This document shows, piece after piece, positions 955 through 58,812 of a stretch of 64,000 nucleotides of DNA (within the stretch, counting starts at the first letter, position 1; each line of letters begins with the position of its first letter). A program made the translations under genes and the position numbers. The notes beneath the pieces were generated by a model. It was not told the DNA's origin and made no database searches. It saw only the letters and a program-made list of their open reading frames with translations. The DNA is from Streptomyces lunaelactis (GTDB lineage: Bacteria; Actinomycetota; Actinomycetes; Streptomycetales; Streptomycetaceae): assembly GCF_003054555.1 (NCBI RefSeq), contig NZ_CP026304.1:2108001-2172000 (forward strand). Reading direction: 5' to 3'.

Positions 955-1527
955 TCAGTCAGCGGGCAGGCCGAACCAGCGGAGGAGTATGGGTCGTGCG
1001 TCGTCGGGGGCGTCCTCGGGGCCGCGGGCATAGCGCGCGAGCAGGGCCAGATAGTCGTCATGGAACGCGTCCAGCTCACCCTTCGTGAGGTGGATGAGGC
1101 CGCGTGAACCCCGCATCCAGCCTTCGGACTCCGCCTGTCCGGCGGTGAACTGCCGGGCTAGCTCGACGTCCTCCTCCATCCTCATCCGGTCCAGCTCGGC
1201 CGACATGGCACGCTCGGCCTCCGTCAGCTCACCCTGCGGCGGTCTGCGGATGTCGAGGCCGCGCACCCCGCGCCACCAGCGCTCACGCCCGGTCGAGCGC
1301 TCGGGGATGTCCTCGACGAGGCCACTGCGCTCCAGCATGCGCAGGTGGTAGCTGAGCGTCCCGGTGTTTTCGCCGAGGGCGGCGGCCAGTGTGGTTGAGG
1401 TGGCCGGGCCCGCCGCGCCGAGGTGGCGCAGGATGCGCAGGCGCAGGGGGTGTGAGAGGGCCTTGAGCACCTCGGGGCTGTCGACCGTGCGCCGCACTGC
1501 GGCTTCCGCTCTCCGCTCTTTCGTCAT
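955..1527 (-). CDS. ArsR-like winged-helix transcriptional regulator
   Basis: A 190-residue protein with an N-terminal winged helix (about residues 15-85): VLKALSHPLRLRILRHL, then TSTTLAAALGENTGTLSYHL and a wing LERSGLVEDI. This is the ArsR/HTH_20 pattern, without the metal-binding cysteines of classical ArsR, so a metal is unlikely to be the signal. The C-terminal 100 residues are charged and helical and resemble the dimerisation part of related Streptomyces regulators. It is transcribed divergently from a secreted protein at 1605, and a perfect 12-bp dyad lies between the two starts. Autorepression and repression of the neighbour is the simplest inference. Confidence 0.85.
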   Translation of the reverse strand: MTKERRAEAAVRRTVDSPEVLKALSHPLRLRILRHLGAAGPATSTTLAAALGENTGTLSYHLRMLERSGLVEDIPERSTGRERWWRGVRGLDIRRPPQGELTEAERAMSAELDRMRMEEDVELARQFTAGQAESEGWMRGSRGLIHLTKGELDAFHDDYLALLARYARGPEDAPDDARPILLRWFGLPAD

Positions 1528-1554
1528 GGCGGCAGTCTATCCAGATCACAGCGA

Positions 1555-1592
1555 TTTCTCTGCAGATCTTACTCTGCAGAGAAACCTCTGCA
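1555..1592. promoter_or_regulatory. Operator-like inverted repeat between divergent genes
   Basis: TTTCTCTGCAGA (1555-1566) and its exact complement TCTGCAGAGAAA (1573-1584) are separated by 6 bases. A further half-site-like CTCTGCA follows at 1586-1592. The element lies in the 77-base gap between the divergent ArsR-like gene and the secreted protein gene. Winged-helix dimers of this family bind such dyads, so it is the probable operator for both promoters. Confidence 0.7.
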
Positions 1593-1604
1593 ATGCTGTG
1601 GCGT

Positions 1605-3419: not shown

Positions 3420-4466
3420 ATGCCGAATCCCACGTATCCGCCCAAGCCCCGTCCCGGTGACCGGATCGGTGTGATCTCGCCATCCAGCGGGCTGCCGGGG
3501 TTGCTGCCGATGCCGTACGAACTCGGGCTTCTGCGGCTGGAGAAGGACTTCGGGCTGGTACCGGTGGAGTATCCGGCGAGCCGGAAGATGGGGGCCACGC
3601 CGCGGGAACGGGCCGACGACATACACGCAGCCTTCCAGGACCCCTCCGTCCGGGCGGTGATGGCGTCCATCGGCGGAGACGATCAGATCACCGTGCTGCC
3701 GCTGCTGGACCGGGAGTTGATCCGCGACAACCCCAAGCCCTTCTTCGGCTACAGCGACAACACCAATCTGCTGGCCTGGCTGTGGAACACCGGGGTCGTC
3801 GGCTATCACGGCGCGAGCGTGATGACGGAGCTCGGGCGGCCCGGGGCGATGGATCCGCATACGGCGGAGTCCGTGCGGGCCGCGCTGTTCTCCTCCGGGA
3901 CCTATGAGCTGCGGCCCGCCGAACGGTTCCGTGATGCCGACCGCGACTGGGCCGACCCGGCGACTTTCACGGCGGAGCCGAAGACCCGGCCGGGTGGCGG
4001 CTGGAGTTGGTACGGGCCGCAGCACGTGGTGGACGGGAGGAGTTGGGGCGGCAATCTGGAGGTGCTCTCCTGGCTGCTGATGTCGGACCGAGAGATCCAG
4101 GCCGGCCTCTCCGCGTACGACGGCTGTGTGCTGTTCCTGGAGACCTCAGAGGAACTGCCGCGTGCCACCGAGGTGTTCCGGATACTGCGGAACATGGGCG
4201 AGCGCGGGCTGCTGCGGCGCTTCCCCGCGCTGCTGATGGGCCGCCCCAAGACCTGGTCCTTCGAGCAGCCCAACGACCGGGCCTCCGCGGAGCGTTACGC
4301 CAGTGAGCAGCGCGAGGCGGTGCAGCGCGCGCTGGCCGAGTACGCCCCGGACACCATGGCGGTCTTCGACGTCGACCTCGGGCACACCGACCCTCAGCTG
4401 GTGATCCCCTACGGCGGTTCGGTCCGCGTCGACGGTCCTGGCCGCCGGATCACCGTGACGTACTGA
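3420..4466 (+). CDS. S66-family (LD-carboxypeptidase/MccF-like) peptidase
   Basis: 348 residues, normal for the S66 family. The N-terminal part has GDRIGVISPSS. The three expected catalytic residues are visible: Ser112 in FGYSDNTN (nucleophile elbow), Glu214 in GGNLEVL and His322 in DLGHTDPQ. The order Ser-Glu-His is diagnostic. No signal peptide, so the enzyme is cytoplasmic. Family members recycle murein tetrapeptides (LdcA) or hydrolyse acylated nucleotides such as microcin C (MccF). The insertion pattern with SWGGN and the length favour an MccF-like enzyme, but the substrate is not shown. It is divergent from the TerD-like gene. Confidence 0.88.
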   Translation: MPNPTYPPKPRPGDRIGVISPSSGLPGLLPMPYELGLLRLEKDFGLVPVEYPASRKMGATPRERADDIHAAFQDPSVRAVMASIGGDDQITVLPLLDRELIRDNPKPFFGYSDNTNLLAWLWNTGVVGYHGASVMTELGRPGAMDPHTAESVRAALFSSGTYELRPAERFRDADRDWADPATFTAEPKTRPGGGWSWYGPQHVVDGRSWGGNLEVLSWLLMSDREIQAGLSAYDGCVLFLETSEELPRATEVFRILRNMGERGLLRRFPALLMGRPKTWSFEQPNDRASAERYASEQREAVQRALAEYAPDTMAVFDVDLGHTDPQLVIPYGGSVRVDGPGRRITVTY

Positions 4467-5767: not shown

Positions 5768-7743
5768 TCAGCGGCGCCAGGAGCGACGGGCGGCGGTGAC
5801 CTGATCCAGTACCTGCCGCAGCACTCCACTGCCCGCGGGCACCGTCAGCGGCTCGTACGTCCAGGCATGGCCGACCCACGGGTCGGCCAGGTGGTCGTCG
5901 GGGACCGGGGTGATCCGCAGCAGGGAGCGCCAGAGCGGGTCGAGCACCGGGCCGTACGCGCTCGCGTCCTCGCGGTCCGCGACCATCAGCAGATGGACGC
6001 CGACCGCCGGGCCCTCGTCGGCGAGGTACCGCAGCTGGGTGACCGCGCGGTCGTCGAAGCCGTGCGGGAAGTCGTTGACGATCAGCAGCTGTTCCGCGGT
6101 GTCCAGATCGGGCGGGAGCGAGTCGGCGGCGCCGCCGCGCACCGCCATCGTCACCAGGTCCACGCGCTGGGTGAGCTTGGCGAGGACGGCACTGACGCCC
6201 TGGGCGCCGGCCGCGGGCGGTCCGTCGAGCGCCCCGGAGTCGACCAGCGGGGTGAGCGAAGGGGCCGCTGTGCCCGCCGGGTCGATGACATGGACCGTGA
6301 ACTCGCCCGGCGGGTAGACGGCGAGCAGCCGGGCCGCGTGCGCGACCGCGCAGTCCAGCGCGAGCTTGCGCAACTGCCCCTCGTCGAGCACCAACGCGGC
6401 CTCGGAGCCGGACCGTCCACTGTCCACCCACAGCCCGCGCTCCAGCGGCAGCCGCACCAGGAAGGGGATGCGCAGCTCCGGGCTCTCGGGCAGATGGAGA
6501 TCGCCGAGGCGCAGCGCCATCGGGATCTCCATGGGGACGCGGTACGCGTGCCAGGCGGGGTTGTCCCAGCGGGCGAAGGCGGGCGGCAGGGCGGGCTCGA
6601 CGACTTCGGACTCGGCGGCGAGCTGGGCCAGATCGCGGTCGAGGACCTGGCGTGCCTGGTCGGCCAGCTGCTCGTACTTGACGCGGGCCGCATCGCGGGC
6701 GGCGTCCCCCTGGCCGCCGATACGGCTGCGCGGGTCGGACAGGACCTTGTCGAGCTCCTGGTCCATCCGGTTCTCGGCGAAGTCGATGGCGCTGCGGTAC
6801 GCGGCGACACTGCGGGCCAGGTCTTCGAACATGCCCCAGATCTGGTTGTAGAGCCGCTCGTCCATGGACCAGCCGGTGGCATCGCCCGCGACGGGCGGAG
6901 CCGGCTGACCGGGCTGGGCGGGCTGTGCGGCCGGGGCGGCGGGGGCGCGGCGGACTGACGGCGCGGATGCGCGTAGTTGACGGGCCCGTCGGGCCCTGGC
7001 GCGGCGTCGGGCACGGGAGTCTGCTGGGAACCCGCGTGGCCGCCCGGTGCGCCGGCCTGACCCGAGGTGGACAGGCCGTCGGGCACCGTCGTGTCCGGTC
7101 CGGGTGCGGGGGTCTGGTTCGGCCGCGGCGCGGCCTGCGGGGTGAAAGCGCCGTCGGCGCCGCGCGTGCGCAGCCGCGCCGGTTCGGCCCGGGGGGCGCG
7201 CGGAGCCACCGCCTGCTGAATGTCCGCGGCCGTCTCGCGGGCCGTCTGCAGCCCCTGGTCGCCCAGCAGTTCCGCGAGTCCGCCCGCGTACCCCTGGCCG
7301 ACGGCGCGGACCTTCCAGGCGCCCTGGCGGCGGTACAGCTCGAGCGCGACGAGCGCGGTCTCGGCCTCGAGGCCGGTGATGGTGAAGCTGGCCAGCTCGG
7401 TGCCGTCCTGGCAGGCGACCGCCACGAAAGGCGCCGCGGTTGCTCCGAACTGGGCCGGGCCGCCGGTGCCTTCGGGGAGCGCGAGCAGCACGTTGACCTG
7501 ATGCACCGCTTCGGGCACGGCCTCCAGGTCGACGGTGAACCGGGGCGCTTCGGTGGCGCGCGGGGACACCTCGACTCCGGGCAGTGCGGGGGCGCCGGGA
7601 TGCGCGAGCCACTGCTCCCGCACCGACCCCCGCTCGTCGGAGCAGGTGGCGCAGGCCATGACCGGATGGCCTGCGGACACCCTTATCTCCAGGCGGGTGT
7701 GGGGCAAGGGGTGGTTCTGTCCCCGGACCAGCTCGGCCGTCAT
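5768..7743 (-). pseudogene. TerD-domain long protein, apparent frameshift in linker
   Basis: The N-terminal frame starts at 7743 (MTAELVRGQNHPLPHTRLEI) and has a TerD-like domain (about residues 45-180: FTVDLEAVPEAVHQVNVLLA, ALVALELYRRQGAWKVRAVG), then a Pro/Ala-rich linker to about 6965. The conserved C-terminal domain is in another frame: WSMDERLYNQIWGMFEDL through LRQVLDQVTAARRSW, ending at 5768. The switch lies between 6940 and 6975 in a GC-rich tract, where one base appears lost. With repair the protein would have about 657 residues, with a C-terminal von-Willebrand-like or ATPase-like half that I cannot assign. Sequencing error, true mutation or programmed shifting are all possible. Confidence 0.75.
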
Positions 7744-17930: not shown

Positions 17931-18064
17931 GGAACTCCTCCAACTCGGCGGCGCCGCCAAAACGGCCCCAACGTACCGGATGAGAAGTCCGTTCCGGACC
18001 GGAAACGGGAGCGGGCCCGGGAGCGTAGCCGGCTCCCGAGCCCTGTGATGCCGCCCATTTCGCA

Positions 18065-18200
18065 CGCCGGCACGCTTGAGAACCCAGGTCAGTCGTTATG
18101 TCGCCGCGTCCTGCCTTTGGACCACCGCGCATCGAGCTGCGCGGGCCGGACTTGAACCGGCATTTCGACGCACCAGGGCCTGGGCCCGGTTGATCCGGCG
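18065..18200 (-). ncRNA. tRNA-mimic RNA B, permuted halves (YrlA-like)
   Basis: Read on the minus strand: stem CGTCG 18170-18166, variable AAAT, T arm GCCGG-TTCAAGT-CCGGC (18161-18145), acceptor CCGCGCA (18144-18138), G, linker CTCGA, acceptor TGCGCGG (18131-18125; 7 bp perfect), TG, D arm GTCC-AAAGGCA-GGAC (18122-18108), G, stem CGGCG 18106-18102 pairing with 18170-18166. So the tRNA 3' half precedes the 5' half. No anticodon loop is formed; the outer sequences pair instead: CCCAGG 18184-18179 with CCTGGG 18088-18083, and CGCCGG 18200-18195 with CCGGCG 18070-18065. It is the expected shape of a YrlA-type Y RNA. Ends are estimates. Confidence 0.7.
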
Positions 18201-18222
18201 ATCGGCGGCGAATGCTGAGTCT

Positions 18223-18369
18223 GGAGCAATAGTCTGAGATTGATCGCGGTCTGCCTCTGCCAGTTGGGCTACCGCGGCCCGTACATCCTGCTGGATGTGC
18301 CGCGGGGAGGACTCGAACCTCCACTTGAACCGCACAGTCACGACAAGCTTCAGTTTCAGCTTGCGCTCC
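18223..18369 (-). ncRNA. tRNA-mimic RNA A, permuted halves (YrlA-like)
   Basis: Read on the minus strand: stem CGGTT 18332-18328, variable CAAGT, T arm GGAGG-TTCGAGT-CCTCC (18322-18306), acceptor CCGCGGC (18305-18299), A, a 19-base linker with hairpin CATCC-AGCA-GGATG (18297-18284), acceptor GCCGCGG (18278-18272; 7 bp perfect), TA, D arm GCCC-AACTGGCAGA-GGC (18269-18253), A, stem GACCG 18251-18247 pairing with 18332-18328. The RNA ends pair beyond this: GTCG 18344-18341 with CGAT 18246-18243, CTGA 18353-18350 with TCAG 18237-18234, GGAG 18369-18366 with CTCC 18226-18223; an 8-base bulge TGACTGTG sits between. It begins about 45 bases after the stop codon of the gene at 18414. Confidence 0.7.
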
Positions 18370-18413
18370 TCGCGCACCCCGCCCGCACAGAGGCGGCCGG
18401 GGAATCATTGAGG

Positions 18414-19145
18414 CTACCCGAACAGATAGCCAAATACGGCGTCGCCCACCCGCTGGTCGGTGACCTCCGCGCCATTCGCCTCCTCGCGGGCGAACTTCAC
18501 GGCCTGCTGAAGCTTTTCCACCCGCTCGAGCAGTTCATTCACCCGCCGGGCCGGCAGCGCACCGGAGAATTTCACGGTCGTCCAGTAACCGACCGGAATG
18601 TCCTCGTAGTACACCTCGACCTGCGCGGGATGCTTTTCGGTCGCCTCCGCCTTCACATGGTTGCGCGGGACCTTCTTCGTACGCAGAGTCCGTACCGACT
18701 CGGTCTTCCATGCGTCGGTCGACGGGTCCTGAGACCACGACTCCGAGGCATCGAGCACCGGCAGCTTGCGCACAAAGGTGTTGATGTCCGTCAACTGCTT
18801 CTCGAGAAAGAGGAGATACGCCACCGGCACCTCGCTCACCAGGACCCGCCCGTCCACCGTGACATCGGCGCGCGCGGTGCAGTTGGCCCAGTCCTTGGTG
18901 GCGGTCACGTCGAACAGCCGGGTCAGCGTCTTCGCGGTCTCGCGCAGCACATCCTCGGCCTTGACCTGCACCCGCGTGGACTCGGGCGGCAGCTGCTCGC
19001 CCTCCTCGTCCTTCGGCTGGTACGTACGCGAGATGCCGGCGAGCAGCGCGGGCTTCTGCAGCCCGTGATGCGCTGTCGTCAGGTCCTGATGCGCCTTGGA
19101 CTTGACGCCTTTCTCGACTGCGATGATCTGATTGAGTTTCGCCAC
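18414..19145 (-). CDS. Protein of unknown function upstream of two tRNA-mimic RNAs
   Basis: 243 residues from a GTG at 19145 (VAKLNQIIAVEKGVKS); an upstream in-frame GTG at 19172 is possible. No signal peptide or membrane segment. Features: basic N-terminus, central DWANCTARADVTVDGRVLV, a helical YLLFLEKQLTDINTFVRKL, then YYEDIPVGYWTTVKFSG and a C-terminal coiled-coil-like ELLERVEKLQQAVKFAREEA. I recall similar hypothetical proteins in actinobacteriophages but know no function. Its adjacency on the same strand to the two tRNA-like RNAs suggests a functional unit, for example an RNA-binding partner; this is inference. Confidence 0.8.
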   Translation of the reverse strand: MAKLNQIIAVEKGVKSKAHQDLTTAHHGLQKPALLAGISRTYQPKDEEGEQLPPESTRVQVKAEDVLRETAKTLTRLFDVTATKDWANCTARADVTVDGRVLVSEVPVAYLLFLEKQLTDINTFVRKLPVLDASESWSQDPSTDAWKTESVRTLRTKKVPRNHVKAEATEKHPAQVEVYYEDIPVGYWTTVKFSGALPARRVNELLERVEKLQQAVKFAREEANGAEVTDQRVGDAVFGYLFG

Positions 19146-58733: not shown

Positions 58734-58807
58734 GCCCCAGTACTCCAATGGTTAGAGAGACGGTGCTCAAACCACCGACAGTGTGGGTTCGAATCCCACC
58801 TGGGGCA
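58734..58807 (+). tRNA. tRNA with anticodon CAA (Leu by codon), class I shape
   Basis: Acceptor GCCCCAG/CTGGGGC (58734-58740 and 58800-58806), TA, D arm CTCC-AATGGTTAGA-GAG, A, anticodon arm CGGTG-CTCAAAC-CACCG with anticodon CAA at 58768-58770, variable loop ACAGT (five bases), T arm GTGGG-TTCGAAT-CCCAC, discriminator A58807. All stems pair. Anticodon CAA reads UUG (Leu), but tRNA-Leu should have a long variable arm; here it is short, so the charging identity is open. The CCA is not encoded. A LAGLIDADG-domain gene starts 110 bases downstream. Confidence 0.9.
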
Positions 58808-58812
58808 CATTT

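Follow-up and report, generated by a model that had tools for sequence, protein, structure and literature searches.

Bacterial Y RNAs of the YrlA type (RF02553) carry a tRNA module in which the 3' half comes first, the acceptor is closed by a loop and the anticodon stem is extended into a long stem. In circularly permuted tRNA genes, for which PMC3978253 gives a 2014 tally of 34 spread over six unicellular algae and one archaeon, the 3' half likewise lies upstream of the 5' half, a loop separates the acceptor strands and CCA is present in some. The acceptor ends are also joined in the precursor of the two-piece (permuted) tmRNA (RF04321). GOLLD and ROOL are large structured RNAs of phages and prophages that are often found near tRNA islands and have no known function (PMC12286853).

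Here, we describe an element found on the minus strand of a 64 kb stretch of Streptomyces lunaelactis DNA, the whole of which is called the window. The element shares the features listed above with YrlA, but it has two modules, a 3' hairpin with a GGNUA motif and a neighbour that belongs to the DUF7873 family and is not Ro60. It also scores well below the 69-bit YrlA cut-off and occurs in genomes with no detected TROVE gene. It resembles the permuted tRNA genes of PMC3978253 in the order of its halves, in the loop between its acceptor strands and in the CCA of some copies. However, it has no anticodon loop and is embedded in long conserved stems, and nearly every locus seen, bacterial or phage, places it beside DUF7873. 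As in two-piece tmRNA, the acceptor ends are joined, but there are two tRNA-like domains, ARAGORN calls no tmRNA and the score is 19.3 bits against a cut-off of 47. Like GOLLD and ROOL (PMC12286853), it is a large structured phage or prophage RNA of unknown function that often lies near tRNA islands; unlike them it is smaller, carries permuted tRNA-like domains and has a neighbouring protein family.

For the element, neither the window nor nine phage loci yielded an Rfam 15 family at its threshold, the nearest being YrlA (24.9-37.6 bits), and no match to GOLLD or ROOL was found in the window or these loci at the gathering threshold. A tmRNA was not identified in the element by Rfam (window) or by ARAGORN (window and 58 virus loci). 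No earlier description was found in the literature searched, in which coverage of the relevant Y RNA and GOLLD papers was incomplete. The element is apparently an undescribed RNA family that imitates tRNA. We would count it as a variant Y RNA if that term were used broadly, for any permuted tRNA mimic; its neighbouring gene, two arms and 3' hairpin mark it as a separate kind.

Extent and parts of the element

The conserved feature covers approximately 18013-18402 (-), including flanking hairpins at 18402-18362 and 18043-18013, and its 5' hairpin starts 11 bases past the stop codon of the DUF7873 gene. The initial annotation had described two separate Y RNAs at this location, linked to an uncharacterised protein. 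The protein is the DUF7873 family member listed below. As the conserved element spans both arms and the 5' and 3' hairpins, it looks like a single RNA, and the two permuted tRNA cores with their flanking hairpins probably form one molecule of about 390 nt. The parts were mapped onto alignment A3, which comprises 32 sequences (31 of 55 Streptomyces loci with both units, near copies removed, and the window). In the A3 consensus, a 5' hairpin and a second hairpin are followed by two long stems, stem 1 bearing permuted tRNA 1 and stem 2 bearing permuted tRNA 2, and then by the 3' hairpin.

18414-19145 (-), DUF7873 gene, 243 aa, GTG start, TAG stop (PF25283, 407 bits)
18377-18402 (-), 5' hairpin (A3 helix 1; 8 pairs, 3 changed on both sides)
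18362-18376 (-), second small hairpin with GCGC stem and purine-rich loop (A3 helix 2)
18214-18360 (-), unit 1, long imperfect stem with the first permuted tRNA-like core (A3 helices 3-8)
18306-18322 (-), unit 1 T arm, loop TTCGAGT (direct reading; A3 helix 6, invariant)
18272-18305 (-), unit 1 acceptor stem with 20-nt linker (A3 helix 7; 7 pairs, 4 changed on both sides)
18253-18269 (-), unit 1 D arm, GG in loop (A3 helix 8)
18050-18209 (-), unit 2, long stem with conserved internal loop and the second permuted tRNA-like core (A3 helices 9-15)
18145-18161 (-), unit 2 T arm, loop TTCAAGT (A3 helix 13; 3 of 5 pairs changed on both sides)
18125-18144 (-), unit 2 acceptor stem with 6-nt closing loop (A3 helix 14; 4 of 7 pairs changed on both sides)
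18108-18122 (-), unit 2 D arm (A3 helix 15)
18013-18043 (-), 3' hairpin with apical GGNUA motif, here GGCTA (A3 helix 16; 13 pairs, 4 changed on both sides)

A descriptor of the permuted core (T arm, 7-nt acceptor strand, linker, complementary 7-nt strand, D arm) gave four matches on the two strands of the 64 kb window. Only the two units scored at least 14 (17.0 and 18.0); the other two matches scored 9.0. A covariance model of the unit 2 domain, R1, which was trained on 21 phage and 8 Streptomyces sequences, matched unit 2 with 123.8 bits at 18062-18203 and unit 1 in part, with 36.6 bits at 18235-18326. At curated thresholds, ARAGORN and Rfam called nothing at the element in the window. An ordinary tRNA gene was rejected as a candidate, there being no cloverleaf in the standard order and no tRNA called at this position. 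The only ordinary tRNA gene called in the window is a tRNA-Leu (CAA) at 58734-58808 (+).

In unit 1, the 3' acceptor strand comes first (18305-18299) and the 5' strand second (18278-18272). This pairing, and that of 18144-18138 with 18131-18125 in unit 2, had been given exactly in the initial annotation, and all seven pairs form in each, both on reading and when mapped onto A3. The T loops TTCGAGT and TTCAAGT and the GG of both D loops were also correct when read against the sequence. The linkers, previously put at 19 and 5 nt, are 20 and 6 nt according to the descriptor. The outer flanks do pair into terminal helices, as had been claimed, but these helices are longer than was stated, running over 18360-18214 in unit 1 and 18209-18050 in unit 2. 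In the A3 consensus, the anticodon stem continues into the conserved long stems with no anticodon loop.

Conservation in Streptomyces

In A3, 99.4% of 3520 cells are paired and 30 of the 110 pairs have changes on both sides. Shuffled controls had a mean of 11.4 two-sided pairs and reached 30 in none of 500 shuffles, and slid versions of the structure gave 2-6. The covariation score is 0.156, against 0.096 for shuffled and 0.025-0.045 for slid versions. Compensatory changes across Streptomyces, which the initial annotation had suggested looking for, are thus present, and its proposal of tRNA mimicry with permuted halves holds for both cores. Helix 2 speaks neither for nor against, since its five pairs are invariant in the 32 sequences. 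Folding of the single sequence gave z values of -1.56 (18050-18412), -1.46 (unit 1) and +0.62 (truncated unit 2), none of them significant, so the case for the structure and its permuted topology is made by comparison.

The Streptomyces set consists of the best 80 of 541 loci (L001-L080) and is thus made up of the closest relatives. In all 80 of these best 80 of 541 loci, the element lies no more than 900 nt 3' of DUF7873 on the same strand as the gene, unit 2 is present, and GG[CT]TACG is found 200-600 nt past the stop codon, with its end a median of 386 nt beyond it. In 21 of the same best 80 of 541, the first tRNA-like cap has been exchanged for a short sequence with no T or D arm. The replacement reads as a plain hairpin on the same stem, which suggests modular loss, and because of these 21 loci the two arms are not essential everywhere, as judged from sequence. 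In the capless loci (L007, L009, L012 and 18 others), the replacement falls within the 190 nt that follow the stop codon of DUF7873. In 25 Streptomyces loci the descriptor detected a single unit; four of these (L003, L038, L061 and L077) do have unit 1 when examined by eye. Swapping anticodon-stem partners among Streptomyces loci was uninformative, as 97-98% pair when swapped too.

Copies in phages

DUF7873 and the RNA occur as a pair in phages of Gordonia, Arthrobacter, Rhodococcus, Pseudanabaena, Rhizobium, Vibrio and Klebsiella. Among GenBank phage loci, the descriptor found the element no more than 900 nt 3' of DUF7873 in eight of nine (two units in five, one in three). The exception, L089 from a Microcoleus phage, has a HEARO RNA (3950-4159 (+), 129.1 bits) 3' of DUF7873 where the element would be expected, and a weak R1 match (35 bits) further on, at 5808-5932. 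Units were found no more than 900 nt 3' of DUF7873 in 97 of 107 IMG/VR loci, with 12 further descriptor matches elsewhere in 588 kb; L125 and L173, which have no in-frame stop before the end of the stretch, were left out of the descriptor count, and L124 and L143 were left out of later unit tables. Descriptor matches elsewhere number 15 in the Streptomyces and IMG/VR loci (1.1 Mb) and one in the GenBank phage loci (61 kb).

With R1 at E ≤0.001, a downstream match on the same strand is present in 101 of the 107 IMG/VR loci by our own tally. A score of at least 50 bits at any position was obtained in 86 of 107, a count that includes training sequences and some near-duplicate contigs. Of the remaining IMG/VR loci, L113 has its R1 match on the opposite strand, L174 has it upstream of DUF7873, and R1 found nothing at E 0.001 in L103, L104, L124 or L161. 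Weak R1 matches in tRNA-rich loci may be tandem tRNAs.

Compensatory changes were seen in 30 of 33 pairs in a mixed alignment, A5, that combines 21 phage sequences with 8 of 12 Streptomyces sequences and omits L126, which runs off its contig, and L152, a near copy of L085. In the 56 distinct virus loci with two units, the acceptors are perfect within units in 54 and 52 but across units in just one and two, the descriptor itself permitting at most one mismatch. Anticodon stems form no part of the descriptor. Across the 67 phage loci with two units (not de-duplicated), these stems are perfect in 31 and 39, compared with 6.4% and 8.1% when partners are swapped. For the helices around the internal loop of unit 2, which has the motifs AUCRA on the 5' side and UUAAA on the 3' side, own partners gave 6.50 and 7.04 against 4.03 (sd 0.20) and 3.57 (sd 0.26) for swapped partners; this test used only units with both regular-expression motifs (51, reduced to 41 without identical ones). 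The base stem of unit 1 showed no covariation beyond that of swapped partners in phages (5.53 versus 5.17, sd 0.19; 29 rows).

The GGNTA loop is closed by six pairs in 59 of 104 phage loci that have a unit. At the best hairpin, the strict motif GGNTAY was found in 48 of the 96 phage loci that have one, compared with none of 76 upstream control hairpins. GG was present in the D loop of 158 of 161 phage units when the descriptor did not require it.

The DUF7873 protein and its linkage to the RNA

The nearest named loci of the DUF7873 protein are in Streptomyces (95-97% protein identity). An AlphaFold2 model (pLDDT 95, pTM 0.73) consists of long helices and two long strands, residues 151-166 and 175-190. 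A conserved basic stretch, RTKKVPRNHV, lies on the first of these strands, and we read this as a likely RNA-binding surface. Searches of PHROGs and NCBIfam with DUF7873 returned nothing, a sequence search of the PDB returned nothing significant (best E 0.11), and PADLOC gave a single weak match, in L091 only (E 0.023). The name DUF7873 was absent from the literature searched.

Within the window's genus, DUF7873 was detected in 93 of 199 genomes; among 149 genomes sampled over the phylum it was found in three, all members of that genus. The control genome of Deinobacterium chartae matches both DUF7873 and TROVE. Relatives occur in 73 phage records, and four scans of IMG/VR recovered 30, 299, 8 and 3 stretches, the best 80 being kept from the largest. 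Among 8000 candidates scored, at least 7627 are DUF7873 relatives.

The presence of the RNA follows that of the gene. In a set of 61 genomes of the genus, 32 have DUF7873, and in 31 of these R1 matches beside the gene with 99.7-131.6 bits. The last, G158, has a score at background level (53.3 bits) and is counted solely for where its match lies. The best R1 score in the 29 genomes that have no DUF7873 was 53.0 bits (stricter filters); of the several thousand first-look candidates in each genome, this search scored only 52, and weak copies may have escaped it. Because of their places beside TROVE and their scores, we infer that the residual R1 matches in other genomes are YrlA-like RNAs or tandem tRNAs, as in the window's own genome. 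In viral scans that started from the RNA motif, the R1 RNA was present in 5 of 19 stretches, and exactly those five have DUF7873 adjoining; four of the five contigs were already known. Comparison of loci thus establishes both the linkage to DUF7873 and the presence of the pair in phages.

Synteny was dropped as a clue to function, as the flanks split into groups and the window's neighbours are seldom shared. The 68 Streptomyces loci with full flanks form two main groups (28 and 23 upstream; 28 and 25 downstream), small groups and singletons, and the four neighbours tested from the window were found in 10, 7, 5 and 1 of the 68. A consensus scan for promoters and terminators found no promoter and one terminator-like site, which is inside the gene.

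Relationship to YrlA and Ro60

The initial annotation had likened the units to YrlA, and at relaxed thresholds YrlA does match unit 1 (24.9 bits, E 0.0055). The permuted module of T arm, closed acceptor and D arm is common to the element and YrlA, the YrlA model (RF02553) scores 37.1 bits in L085 and 37.6 bits in L092, and a Ro60 protein is encoded elsewhere in the same genome, all of which could be expected if the element were a genuine YrlA-type Y RNA that binds Ro60. We regard this as very improbable. The shared module stands, but identity with YrlA does not, as none of the scores in the window or the nine phage loci reaches the curated cut-off of 69 bits. TROVE is present in 39 of the 61 genomes of the genus and is about equally common with DUF7873 (22 of 32) and without it (17 of 29), and it was found in 9 of 47 virus records with DUF7873, which may be incomplete. 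Ten of the 32 genomes that have DUF7873 and the RNA show no TROVE match, and from this comparison of genomes Ro60 is not required for the element. Given the distribution of TROVE in the genus and in the virus records, the DUF7873 RNA and Ro60/YrlA look like two separate systems. As the element shares the tRNA module, it would nonetheless work like the tRNA head of a Y RNA.

The Ro60 locus of the window's own genome also has its own YrlA-like RNA, which R1 matches only over model positions 42-104. This RNA (33.8 bits with YrlA, 49.8 bits with R1) is just upstream of the TROVE protein, an open frame of 613 codons. The locus (L081/L083) is at about 2039500-2040800 of contig C1, outside the window and about 85 kb from the element. 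Several other genomes of the genus (G023, G163, G171, G180, G181 and G187) have two R1 matches 234-264 nt apart beside TROVE. Elsewhere in the same genome as the window, two neighbouring tRNA-Asn genes (L082, 1487-1637 (-); isotype from the anticodon reading) score 40.7 bits with YrlA. Tandem tRNAs can thus imitate the permuted core and are a trap for YrlA annotation.

Acceptor ends and alternative explanations

The maturation of tRNA ends is signalled by the base at position 73, the CCA that follows it and a U ahead of the 5' acceptor strand. Among distinct phage units, the unit 1 linker has A73 in 41, C74 in 52 and CCA in 26 of 56, and the unit 2 linker has U73 in 37, C74 in 53 and CCA in 21 of 55. 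A full CCA would be expected by chance in about one phage unit. U precedes the 5' acceptor strand in 33 of 56 (unit 1) and 36 of 55 (unit 2). In Streptomyces, all 29 copies of unit 2 carry G73 and lack CCA, its closing loop is 6-8 nt long, and unit 1 encodes CCA in 9 of 48. Either the acceptor ends are cut and used, or they are part of the mimicry and have been simplified in Streptomyces.

As many phage copies encode CCA at their acceptor ends, cleavage and charging may occur, and they are the main rival to the reading we favour, that of a tRNA-mimic particle which captures or redirects a tRNA-handling factor. Enzymes of tRNA processing could cut the two acceptor loops and so split the RNA into three pieces, freeing a 3' CCA at one or two ends. 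These ends would be charged with an amino acid, as in two-piece tmRNA, and then used on the ribosome or by another enzyme. The end signals kept by the phage units are consistent with this, as is the match of the permuted tmRNA model, itself below the cut-off, to unit 1 of L085. The Streptomyces copies argue against it, with G73, no CCA and a short closing loop throughout unit 2, CCA in a minority of unit 1 sequences and the first cap lost from 21 of the best 80 of 541 loci, and ARAGORN called no tmRNA in any copy in the window or the 58 virus loci. On balance we think such cleavage unlikely. A more specific proposal is that the ribonucleoprotein holds its two arms a fixed distance apart, processing of the acceptor loops leaves charged or chargeable CCA ends, and the particle occupies two tRNA sites of the ribosome, or two tRNA-binding enzymes, to switch or protect translation in infection; we judge this to be doubtful, more so than cleavage as such.

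In all 80 Streptomyces loci (best 80 of 541), and in the 101 of 107 IMG/VR loci noted above (R1, E 0.001), the element shares the strand of DUF7873 and comes after its stop codon. This arrangement would also suit a cis-acting element in the 3' UTR through which the DUF7873 mRNA is controlled, for example by binding a tRNA-handling protein. The opposite orientation in L113 and the upstream location in L174 do not fit this, and the size and conservation of the element appear to exceed the needs of autoregulation, leaving it a slim prospect. Finally, ordinary tRNA genes, decayed or in tandem, might account for the units. Two identical tRNA genes side by side can resemble a permuted core, as the tRNA-Asn pair in L082 does, and ARAGORN places a tRNA-Ser over the element in L102. 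However, pairing of the acceptors within units and almost never across them, the strong covariation in A3 and A5, and the lack of any tRNA call at the element in the window (ARAGORN; Rfam threshold) make this scarcely credible. The same pairing and covariation contradict independent decay of the halves into tRNA fragments, the outcome that the initial annotation had named as fatal to its claim.

Proposed role

We consider it probable, on the sequence comparisons above, that the approximately 390-nt non-coding RNA is the RNA half of a DUF7873 ribonucleoprotein which offers tRNA-shaped arms to the host machinery that handles tRNA, and that this particle is of a phage type now resident in many Streptomyces. 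The RNA would be made as a single transcript and fold into two long stems, each tipped by a tRNA-shaped domain with the 3' half first, in the order T arm, acceptor, closing loop, acceptor, D arm. With the anticodon stem continuing into the long stem, no anticodon loop would be left. The likeliest places for DUF7873 to bind would be the stems, the conserved internal loop in unit 2 or the GGNUA hairpin. The two arms would then be presented to a host machine that handles tRNA, and the likeliest job is to sequester or redirect such a factor while a phage infects the cell, be it a tRNA nuclease, the ribosome or an enzyme of processing or decay. Many Streptomyces would have retained a resident copy, the direction of movement that we infer being from phages to Streptomyces.

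We favour capture or redirection of a tRNA-handling factor because phage tRNAs can counter tRNA-cutting defences (PMC11555353) and because DUF7873 has a putative RNA-binding surface. By analogy, the best reading of the element is as a functional likeness of a double-headed Y RNA that is not YrlA.

The element appears to represent an RNA family absent from Rfam 15 that is found beside a protein family of unknown function, and that spans Streptomyces and the tailed phages of hosts from several phyla. In it, the permuted tRNA module known from YrlA recurs beside another protein. Confirmation would make permuted tRNA mimicry a building block of general use with at least two different protein partners, Ro60 and DUF7873. 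It would also indicate a first function for DUF7873 and open a phage-type tRNA-mimic particle to tests in safe laboratory hosts.

tRNA and tmRNA genes near the element in virus loci

Among the 58 virus loci scanned for tRNA and tmRNA genes, 30 have at least one call within the few kilobases fetched, with up to 21 in L153, and 28 have none. A few of the calls overlap or adjoin the element itself; in addition to the tRNA-Ser in L102, ARAGORN reported an odd tRNA near the R1 match in L145. Two phage contigs have a tmRNA gene near DUF7873, at 1072-1600 (+) in L085 and 976-1373 (+) in L157.
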